Below are positions 43,360 through 45,891 of a DNA stretch of 64,000 bases, in pieces (position 1 is the stretch's first letter; every line of letters begins with the position of its first letter). The position numbers and the translations under genes are program-made. The notes beneath the pieces are model-generated. The model ran no database searches. It saw only the letters and a program-made list of their open reading frames with translations, and was not told the origin of the DNA. Source of the DNA: Phycisphaeraceae bacterium (GTDB lineage Bacteria > Planctomycetota > Phycisphaerae > Phycisphaerales > UBA1924). The stretch is taken from positions 124,001 through 188,000 of the forward strand of contig JAHBXL010000007.1 of assembly GCA_019636495.1 (NCBI GenBank), written 5' to 3'.

Positions 43360-43575
43360 GGGGGCGGGCTCAAAGGGAACCGGAGCGTGGCCGGTTGAGG
43401 GGGAGGCGGTGCGGATGCCGGGGGGCCGAAGGAGGGCCCAAGGGGAGGGCGGGGGCGCGATTGTACCAAGCGATCTGTGGAAACGGCCGCGGCACGAAAG
43501 ACCTGCCGAACAGCGTGCAGCGGGCGAGGGCGATCGCTTGTGCGGACTCCGGTCGGGTGGTGTATAGTGGGCACC

Positions 43576-45129
43576 GTGAGTAAGAAGACACGCAAGAAAA
43601 CCGCGGAGCCAAAGACCGCCACCCTGCCGAAGGCAGAGCCCGAAGCCGCCCCTGCGCCCGCGGCGGGAAGGCCCTCCGCGCTGGTCGATACCCGCGTCAT
43701 CTACTGCGGCGACAACATCGAGCAGTTGAAGAAACTCCCCGATGCCTGCATCGACCTGATCTACATCGATCCACCCTTCAACTCCAACCGCAACTACGAG
43801 GTCTTCTGGGGCGAGACCAAGGAGAAGCGGTCGTTCGAGGACCGCCACGCCAGCACCCAGGCCTACATCGACTACATGCGCCCGCGATGCGTGGAACTCG
43901 CCCGCGTGCTCAAGAAGTCCGGCAGTTTCTACTACCACTGCGACTGGCACGCCAGCCACTACGTCAAGGTCATGCTCGACCAGATCTTTGGGGAGAACAA
44001 CTTTCAGAACGAGATTGTGTGGCGACGAACGAAGGCCCACAACGACTCGAAGCGCTATGGGGCGAACCACGACACCATCTTCTTTTACTCGAACGGCGGG
44101 AAGTGGACTTGGAACGTTCAGTACGCTCCTTACTCAAAAGAGTATGTACAGGAGAATTATCGCTACACCGACGAGAAGGGCCGCGTGTTTCGCGTATCTG
44201 ATATGACGGCCAACAAACCAGGCGGCGACGTGTCCTACGAGTGGACCGCCCCTGATGGAAGAAAGGTCCTGCCGTACAGGGGCCGCTACTGGGCATACTC
44301 AAAGGAGAACATGCTCAAGATGCAGGCCGCGGGCCAGATCTACCACCGAACAACCGGCATGCCGATGTTGAAGCACTATCTGGACGAAATGCCTGGAACA
44401 CCGCTGCAGACCTTTTGGGATGATGTCGATCCCGTCATCTCGGGCAGCGAGGAGCGCCTCGGCTACCCGACCCAAAAGCCCCTCGTCCTTCTCGACCGCA
44501 TCATCAAGTCAAGCAGCAACCCCAACGACATCGTCCTCGACGCCTTTTGCGGCTGCGGCACCGCGCTCGTCGCGGCACAGAATCTCGGCCGCCAATGGAT
44601 CGGCATCGATGTCTCCCCCACCGCCTGCCGCGTCATGGCCAAGCGCCTGCGCGATGTCTGCAAGATGCGGGAAAGCGAGCCCCACTGGCGCGCCCACCGC
44701 ACCGATGCCTTCGTCGTGCGGGACCTGCCCTGGACGATCGAGAAACTCAAGGCCATCCCGCCGTTTGAGTTTGAGAACTGGGCGGTCATCGCGCTGGGCG
44801 GCATTCCCAACAAGGTGCAGGTCGGCGACATGGGCATCGATGGACGAATCTACCCCGTCGGCACCAAACCCAGCGACCAGAACAGCATGTTCGCGGGTGA
44901 CTGGTTCCCGGTGCAAGTGAAGCAGACCGACCGCGTTGGCCGACCGGATATCGACGGCTTCGAGGCCGTCATGGAACGCGAGGACCGCCAACGCGGCTTC
45001 TTCGTGGCGTTTGGCTACTCATCCGATGCCATCTCCGAATGCGCGGCGTTCCACAAGCGAACCGGCAGACTCATCAAACTCCTGACCGTGCAGGAGATTC
45101 TCGATGAGGAGCATGTGCAGAAGATGTAG
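43576..45129 (+). CDS. DNA methyltransferase fused to Mrr-like nuclease domain
   Basis: The 517-residue protein has motif IV at 61-70 (LIYIDPPFNS) and the SAM motif at 319-332 (IVLDAFCGCGTALV), a beta-class methyltransferase. Residues about 400-500 add a Mrr-type PD-(D/E)xK domain: GDMGIDGRIYP (Asp422), FPVQVKQ (Gln447, Lys449) and GFFVAFGYSSDAISEC. One chain could both modify and cut DNA. The start is a GTG at 43576-43578 with TATAGT 7 bases upstream, suggesting a leaderless message. Its last 51 bases are repeated at 45525-45575. Confidence 0.85.
   Translation: MSKKTRKKTAEPKTATLPKAEPEAAPAPAAGRPSALVDTRVIYCGDNIEQLKKLPDACIDLIYIDPPFNSNRNYEVFWGETKEKRSFEDRHASTQAYIDYMRPRCVELARVLKKSGSFYYHCDWHASHYVKVMLDQIFGENNFQNEIVWRRTKAHNDSKRYGANHDTIFFYSNGGKWTWNVQYAPYSKEYVQENYRYTDEKGRVFRVSDMTANKPGGDVSYEWTAPDGRKVLPYRGRYWAYSKENMLKMQAAGQIYHRTTGMPMLKHYLDEMPGTPLQTFWDDVDPVISGSEERLGYPTQKPLVLLDRIIKSSSNPNDIVLDAFCGCGTALVAAQNLGRQWIGIDVSPTACRVMAKRLRDVCKMRESEPHWRAHRTDAFVVRDLPWTIEKLKAIPPFEFENWAVIALGGIPNKVQVGDMGIDGRIYPVGTKPSDQNSMFAGDWFPVQVKQTDRVGRPDIDGFEAVMEREDRQRGFFVAFGYSSDAISECAAFHKRTGRLIKLLTVQEILDEEHVQKM
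45079..45129. repeat. 51-bp repeat, copy 1 (3' end of methyltransferase-Mrr gene)
   Basis: It encodes LLTVQEILDEEHVQKM and the stop of the fusion protein. It matches 45525-45575 in 50 of 51 bases. Confidence 0.85.
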
Positions 45130-45145
45130 TCACTGAAGGGCATGT

Positions 45146-45487
45146 ATGGACCTCAAATCATTTGTGTCGGCGACCCTCTGCCAAATCGTGGAAGGTGCAG
45201 TCGCCGCCCAATCAAGTGTTGGCCCCTTGGGGGCAATAGTTGTTCCGTCTGGTGACTACGGTCGGGCAAAGGAAGGCGGACTAGGTCTGCGATCAAATCA
45301 GAGGGTGGAGCCTACTCGGGTAGAGTTTGATGTCGCAGTCACGGTGACAGAAGCGAGCGAGGCACAGGGGAAGGGAGGGATTACAGTTGCCGGCACGGGT
45401 ATCGGCGGAAGTCTCACAGGAACGAAGGGCATGGAAGTCGTAAATCGAATACGCTTCGCCATCGACATCGTTTTGCCACCGGGGTGA
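45146..45487 (+). CDS. small protein of unknown function behind the methyltransferase-Mrr gene
   Basis: The 113-residue protein begins MDLKSFVSATLCQIVEGAVA, a short helix, and ends with a predicted beta sheet (VEFDVAVTVTEASEAQGKGG and RIRFAIDIVLPP). No signal peptide or catalytic motif. It starts 16 bases after the fusion-gene stop and lies between the two copies of the 51-bp repeat. It may be an accessory of the system or a later insertion. I do not recognise a characterised family. Confidence 0.55.
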   Translation: MDLKSFVSATLCQIVEGAVAAQSSVGPLGAIVVPSGDYGRAKEGGLGLRSNQRVEPTRVEFDVAVTVTEASEAQGKGGITVAGTGIGGSLTGTKGMEVVNRIRFAIDIVLPPG

Positions 45488-45524
45488 GTCGGGGGCGGCA
45501 CGGCCCTCATCGCTTCACAGAGGG

Positions 45525-45575
45525 CTCCTGACCGTGCAGGAGATTCTCGATGAGGAGCACGTGCAGAAGATGTAG
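45525..45575 (+). pseudogene. duplicated 3' end of the methyltransferase-Mrr gene
   Basis: A 51-bp copy with one mismatch to 45079-45129 still encodes LTVQEILDEEHVQKM-stop but has no gene body in front. It shows that about 395 bases including the small gene at 45146 lie between two versions of the same gene end. Confidence 0.8.
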
Positions 45576-45585
45576 GAGACGGCCG

Positions 45586-45891
45586 ATGACCGATCAACTG
45601 GACCCTGGGGGCTGCAAGGAACGAGTTTATCTCGCAGTCAAAGTACTTGTTGGTCATGGAGATCTTCGGGCACGACTGCTCGAGGCGAGTGAGCACCTGA
45701 ACGCGCTACAAATTGACGAGTTCCGCGAATCATTGCAGAATCAGTTCTTGAGTGTCAGGGCAGCGCTTTCGGGCTACCTGAACAGTTCAGCCCAAGGAAC
45801 TCATCCGGTAATGAAACTGGATGATGAACAGGCGGTGCAGGTTTCGGAAGAAATCGTCGATCTCTTCTTCGCCCTCACCGAGCCCGACTGA
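45586..45891 (+). CDS. small acidic protein of unknown function
   Basis: The 101-residue protein is largely helical (VYLAVKVLVGHGDLRARLLE and AVQVSEEIVDLFFALTEPD) with no cysteine cluster or membrane segment. AGGAG lies seven bases before the ATG. It starts 11 bases after the duplicated end of the methyltransferase-Mrr gene, so it was probably the original gene next to that stop. Function unknown. Confidence 0.55.
   Translation: MTDQLDPGGCKERVYLAVKVLVGHGDLRARLLEASEHLNALQIDEFRESLQNQFLSVRAALSGYLNSSAQGTHPVMKLDDEQAVQVSEEIVDLFFALTEPD

Follow-up and report, generated by a model that had tools for sequence, protein, structure and literature searches.

Organisation of the locus

The window is the whole stretch of DNA that was analysed, 64,000 nucleotides from a Phycisphaeraceae bacterium; its own fusion locus is labelled WIN. 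On the plus strand lies a gene with a GTG start (43576–45129), the 517 amino acid product of which contains an N6_N4_Mtase domain (166.7 bits; cut-off 26.7) and, at its C-terminus, an Mrr_cat domain (Pfam; 24.0 bits, cut-off 21). The order of motifs is that of a beta-class methyltransferase, DPPF being N-terminal and followed near residue 322 by the FxGxG-like DAFCGCGT, and the D ... QxK residues of Mrr_cat are present as GID...QVK. The protein is a fusion of a beta-class DNA methyltransferase with an Mrr nuclease and, judged from its sequence, a putative single-chain restriction-modification-like enzyme. Seven nucleotides before the GTG stands the -10-like element TATAGT (43563–43568, plus strand) of a leaderless-type promoter. 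The 5' block of the gene, codons 1 to about 128 (43576–43960), matches the start fragments (N-arms) of the bracket loci described below, as defined by the breakpoints in 11 of them. The middle (44022–44458), a putative target-recognition region, is where homology ends both between the window and locus L048 and between loci L083 and L089; it cannot be aligned at the DNA level even among relatives from the same locus or the same genus. The 3' block (44459–45129) is conserved in DNA alignments, and its last part matches the end fragments (C-arms) of the brackets as given by their breakpoints.

According to the initial annotation the last 51 bases of this gene recur 446 bases downstream with one mismatch, and the repeat search agrees: positions 45079–45129 and 45525–45575, both on the plus strand, form a direct repeat of 51 nt (98% identity, one mismatch, spacing 446). 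Copy 1 is the exact end of the fusion gene, including its stop codon, while copy 2 is a displaced gene end at which the rest of the gene is absent. Among the other direct repeats of the 6-kb region none exceeds 33 nt, with identities of 70–88%, and no further copy of the repeat region was found in the 4.08-Mb assembly. A chance origin is ruled out by the lengths of these other repeats and by gene-end copies behind homologous genes elsewhere, and a multi-copy repeat family by the lack of another copy in the genome's own assembly.

The same annotation had placed one small gene between the copies and a second after them, and both were recovered on the plus strand. Small gene 1 (45146–45487; 113 amino acids) stops 37 nt before copy 2 and has weak relatives in genomes G192 and G254. 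Its match to Pfam Trypco2 (PF19631; E = 0.015, 16.0 bits) falls below the gathering score of 24.2 and all three homologues match that family weakly, so the product is labelled only "Trypco2-like" and not assigned to Trypco2. Small gene 2 probably occupies 45586–45891 (101 amino acids, no recognised family), its start being placed by an AGGAG that overlaps the stop codon of copy 2; this start is likelier than that of the alternative listed reading frame (45550–45891), which would begin within copy 2. The product is predicted, with low confidence, to be helical, and the predicted structures of the two small proteins have pLDDT values of 54 and 56. The G+C content is 60% in the fusion gene, 57% in small gene 1 and 53% in small gene 2, with 68% for the window. 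Upstream of the fusion gene, and divergent from it, lies a second N6/N4 methyltransferase gene (P0004; 42217–43359, minus strand); with a homologue in 236 of the 301 genomes of the order, it has the appearance of an orphan methyltransferase that is nearly core.

Gene-end repeats around small genes resemble att sites or cassette arrays, and could be taken to mean that cassettes are mobilised by a site-specific recombinase of the integron or phage-integrase type, with the gene end as attachment site. A search for the integron integrase (TIGR02249), however, gave only general tyrosine recombinases under the cut-off in this genome and none on the contig (C33), the 51-bp repeat shows no folding advantage over its shuffles (z-scores -0.2 to -1.0), and repeat lengths and breakpoints vary (33 to about 450 bp) with no fixed core. 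Integron- or att-like folding was rejected on the absence of a TIGR02249 match over the cut-off together with the shuffle-level folding, and a site-specific recombinase of any of these kinds is highly improbable.

Relatives of the fusion gene and the genes behind them

Whole-genome searches of the window's order and family, together with one GTDB contig scan, yielded 94 distinct homologous loci, mostly in Planctomycetota and also in Acidobacteriota, Verrucomicrobiota, Sumerlaeota and others. At E <= 1e-60, 23 of the 301 genomes of the order carry the gene in whole or in part, which makes the fusion a sporadic, accessory gene. A phage or plasmid origin of the arrangement was discarded: the relatives found in plasmid and phage collections were all under 60% identity, and 17 virus-like contigs carried neither gene-end remnants nor recognisable defence cargo. 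Of 72 intact loci, 53 have a -10-like hexamer (TANNNT) at a distance of 5–16 nt upstream of an in-frame start, versus 5% at random positions, an enrichment which indicates that the N-arm brings a start codon and a leaderless-type promoter with it. In locus L188 (G300:C28, 2181–2997) an internal deletion joins fusion codons ~1–135 to ~347–517, so that the variable middle and one methyltransferase motif are lost.

The first gene behind the fusion often begins within about 60 nt, and across the 94 loci its family usually differs from one locus to the next and is often an antiphage or toxin family. The first genes include RelA_SpoT (L003, L018), an OLD-like AAA protein (AAA_15/AAA_21; L012), DUF4062 (L037), FRG (L044, L067), DUF2513 (L049), AbiTii (L061), DUF559 (L071), a TumE toxin (L078), HNH (L081), PIN_4 (L102), ApeA with HEPN (L106), Schlafen AlbA_2 (L110) and AbiJ_NTD4 (L112), the others being unrecognised. 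Codon-usage gene calling overlooks this cargo, probably owing to its atypical composition. Cargo proteins of 209–480 amino acids with no Pfam match, some of them with no PADLOC match either, occur at L040, L082, L084, L085, L087, L099, L185, L187 and L190 and are candidates for new defence genes. Many homologues, mostly in Acidobacteria and on the virus-like contigs, either lack cargo or are followed by nothing more than an ordinary neighbour, and exchange is therefore not universal. In the same-genus genome G192 a different gene of 117 amino acids comes first behind the fusion and a Trypco2-like gene second. Rather than being conserved in all homologues, the window's two small genes and both repeat copies occur together at WIN only, among about 94 loci.

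Displaced gene ends and probable exchange at one site

Fragments of the 3' part of the gene lie downstream of it in 9 of 91 close homologues. A systematic test at the DNA level gave eight loci with displaced gene ends, all downstream and in direct orientation, L040 being visible at the protein level only; the same search, run upstream and on the minus strand, found no upstream or inverted gene-end copies among the close homologues. The displaced end measures 51 bp at WIN, 257 bp at L083, 193 bp at L091, 47 bp at L087 and 33 bp at L110; L078 has fragments of ~420 bp and 90 bp, L082 two ends of ~45 bp, each after the same ~40-bp repeated sequence, L084 three pieces and L040 two fragments. Direct repeats of tens to hundreds of base pairs flank the insert at WIN, L078, L082, L083 and L091.

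Some of these loci show further detail. Behind the stop codon of L084 (0 to +1634) three separate fusion fragments (end, motif region and Mrr part) are interspersed with two other genes, a series that suggests repeated exchange. Both displaced ends of L082 (+100 to +184 and +1310 to +1394) are preceded by a short repeat (GATTTCTC.GCT.CG.TCGAAATGAC), possibly a dispersed repeat with a role in the junctions. Copies of the gene start, 48–51 bp long and 85–92% identical, stand outside the gene in the upstream flank of L087 and at +342 to +391 in L079, and are possibly mirror-image remnants.

Exchange at a fixed site is most directly supported by L083 and L089, which belong to near relatives and occupy the same chromosomal site between flanks that are 95–97% identical. 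Their fusion genes are 95% identical at the start, cannot be aligned in the middle and are 90% identical at the end, and nearly all of the sequence behind the gene differs for ~2 kb. Behind the fusion, L083 has a 92 amino acid gene and a gene-end remnant which is absent from L089, where a different gene of ~600 amino acids lies on the other strand. The original suggestion that a downstream accessory gene is inserted or exchanged at the gene end is supported by this pair, by the varied cargo and by the displaced ends in 9 of 91 homologues; we infer that recombination at the gene end is the agent of that exchange.

Bracket loci

The genomes bearing the loci, and the window's order, were also searched with the two ends of the gene separately. 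The start and the end of this same gene also bracket unrelated defence modules, a feature that the initial annotation had missed. At about 18 bracket loci only the fusion start (promoter plus codons 1 to ~93–128), its end (the last ~46–150 codons) or both are kept. The N-arm ends at fusion codons 93–128 in 11 loci and most C-arms begin at codons 372–463, the arms being short, about 140–450 bp. Both arms enclose a HEC-01A-like ATPase with DUF4276 (L128), a C5 methyltransferase with a GIY-YIG nuclease (L129), an AAA_21 ATPase with a protein of 229 amino acids (L130), another N6 methyltransferase with one of 346 amino acids (L134), an HSDR_N protein (L182), HNH (L183) and, with a decayed C-arm, a protein of 321 amino acids (L185). 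One or partial arms accompany HNH (L131), DUF1828/1829 (L132), NADAR (L186), a 465 amino acid protein with no Pfam match (L187), a BglII nuclease with an MT-A70 methyltransferase (L189) and a DUF559-like fragment (L192), and are also found at L184, L190, L191 and L194. Most loci come from MAGs; misassembly is disfavoured, though not everywhere excluded, because some contigs are long (1.6 Mb for L186, 310 kb for L187, 241 kb for L192 and 145 kb for L190). Comparison of bracket with intact loci revealed only scattered shared neighbours.

In eight of ten brackets the N-arm reading frame continues across the junction without a stop codon and ends no more than 7 nt from a cargo start, as against 2 of 20 other frames (Fisher p = 0.0003), a count in which TTG or a gap of 6 nt has to be allowed for the starts at L129, L183 and L185. 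The C-arm usually begins a few tens of base pairs from the cargo stop. The sequence of these junctions suggests that they are under selection for translational coupling.

Genome G707 holds three brackets with N-arms 95–96% identical, three unrelated modules and no shared outer flanks, although ~170 bp behind the stop are common to two of them; in their arms the three are not independent of one another. Dispersed palindromic repeats (of the TTCCAATnATTGGAA type) were seen in G707 beside the fusion gene and the brackets, in the flanks of L040, L128 and L134. The arms of one bracket can have different lineage origins, as is seen in L130, the N-arm of which is 91% identical to the intact gene of its own genome, while the C-arm is 86% identical to the window's lineage and 74% to its own.

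It might be argued that the fusion is simply an accessory gene that is often inactivated, its fragments being ordinary pseudogene debris in defence islands. Defence genes cluster anyway, and degraded fragments do exist, in the form of frameshifts (L083, L183, L185), several pieces (L084) and an internal deletion (L188). Such decay does not readily account for fragments that are limited to the start and end of the gene, with clustered breakpoints and one orientation, nor for N-arms that retain the -10 element and an open frame ending at the cargo start, with C-arms close behind the cargo stop. Moreover, order-wide searches gave 6 orphan-arm loci against ~20 intact fusion genes, whereas P0004 had no orphan ends among the matches listed in the same 301 genomes, P0004 being an imperfect control as a near-core gene and an accessory gene a stronger one. 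Decay is accordingly rated as quite improbable.

Ancestry of the copies

The displaced copy in the window is 98% identical to its own gene, the next best match being 94% (G192), and in the window itself it may thus stem from a recent local duplication. (In G192 the fusion gene is on another contig; the P0004 orthologue there has no adjacent fusion, and its far flank is inverted, that is, rearranged.) The two copies are likewise mutually closest at L078, L082 and L091, but not at L083, L040 and L110.

The main rival explanation builds on this likeness. The small gene, elsewhere a larger restriction or toxin unit, would have inserted itself by end-joining or replication and duplicated ~50–450 bp of its target. 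Long, variable duplications (of the order of 100 bp) on insertion are stated for some restriction-modification systems (PMC3874152), the window's copies are nearest each other, and unit lengths differ between loci. Yet target duplication predicts that a copy is most like the gene beside it. In L083 the remnant has its own gene only in seventh place, genes of three other genomes being closer; for the fragments of L040, L110, L084 and L087 other genomes provide matches that are equally good or better, the shortest of these fragments being weak tests. It also leaves unexplained the brackets, from which the middle is gone and the arms of which are of different lineages. Fitting the window alone, and neither the brackets nor the mosaic arms, insertion with long target duplication is unlikely.

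Proposed mechanism

The best explanation, and a fairly probable one, is that defence genes are exchanged by allelic recombination at the conserved ends of a restriction-modification-like anchor gene; that homologous recombination is the agent, that events in the window took a particular order and that the cargo has an antiphage role is what we infer. An incoming allele with the same ends and different content would recombine with the copy already in place, within either the 5' or the 3' conserved block, and the crossover positions would decide what is replaced, be it the variable middle, the gene behind the stop codon or nearly the whole gene. One crossover at the gene end, combined with an imprecise or tandem-copy junction, could leave the old end displaced ahead of the old cargo. 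On the order seen in the window (fusion, Trypco2-like gene, 51-bp end, small gene 2), small gene 2 would be the earlier cargo and the Trypco2-like gene the more recent one, and the 51-base copy looks like the leftover of a cargo swap. RecA-type recombination across the 51-bp direct repeat could then remove or swap the newer cargo. Counting against allelic recombination, the bracket arms are near or under the lengths preferred by efficient RecA recombination, and the loci revealed neither a donor molecule nor a circular intermediate nor an actual exchange event.

A broader proposal is put forward more tentatively, as possible but short of probable: the start of the widespread methyltransferase–Mrr gene (leaderless promoter plus ~93–128 codons) and its end may serve as a portable docking frame across Planctomycetota, Verrucomicrobiota, Sumerlaeota and others. 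Defence modules would be inserted such that translation of the truncated start runs on as far as the start codon of the cargo, and the shared arms would let modules pass from site to site and from lineage to lineage, with no dedicated recombinase. The proposal bears on the question of how a single defence gene can reach another genome where no integrase or transposase takes part. Were the ends of this common restriction gene a generic docking frame, turnover of defence genes would have a simple, testable route in homologous exchange at ~140–450-bp arms, searches for orphaned gene ends would lead to new defence genes, many cargo genes having no recognised family, and the kept promoter and in-frame coupling would suggest immediate expression of a newly arrived defence gene.

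Comparison with known systems

In minimal mobile elements the flanks are neighbouring core genes, whereas here both belong to a single accessory defence gene, being its two ends, and that gene is the content present by default. Exchange between conserved flanks is described for these elements in Neisseria (Saunders & Snyder; Snyder et al. 2007, as cited in PMC3388099), where the cassettes move by homologous recombination; the features shared with the present loci are different cassettes between conserved flanks, the lack of mobility genes and, putatively, homologous recombination. Alternative cassettes at one site, by which such elements are recognised, are found in L083 versus L089, and the mosaic arms give support to a putative integration by homologous recombination.

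Insertion with long target duplication has been proposed for Helicobacter restriction-modification genes. That restriction-modification genes insert in this way is known from earlier work (Nobusato et al. 2000; PMC3031569, PMC3874152). The common feature is a restriction-related unit beside a direct repeat of ~50–100 bp or more; the present loci differ in that the copies may be of different lineages, the duplicated stretch invariably comes from the end of one gene family, and the greater part of that gene may be replaced. Domain movement, or exchange of target-recognition domains, in type I/III restriction genes (PMC3077401, PMC3874152) similarly has conserved blocks flanking a variable block that is exchanged by recombination. 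Unlike in domain movement, the exchanged block here can be a whole unrelated defence operon. CdiA/Rhs polymorphic toxin loci carry orphan tip cassettes, with displaced old 3' ends ahead of old cargo; the present loci have a conserved gene end, with the cargo encoded by a gene of its own behind it.

Effector genes are also embedded in restriction-modification operons, for example PrrC in PrrI, and in the sections of the HEPN survey (PMC3710099) that concern them abortive-infection genes adjoin a restriction-modification gene as they do here, with overlapping families (ApeA, AbiJ, HEPN); those sections treat functional linkage and mention neither remnants of gene ends nor brackets. The open-access literature searched yielded no account of gene-end brackets. 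Relative to the known systems in that literature, the apparently new elements are a frame made from the two ends of a single restriction-like gene and the coupling of its truncated start to the cargo.
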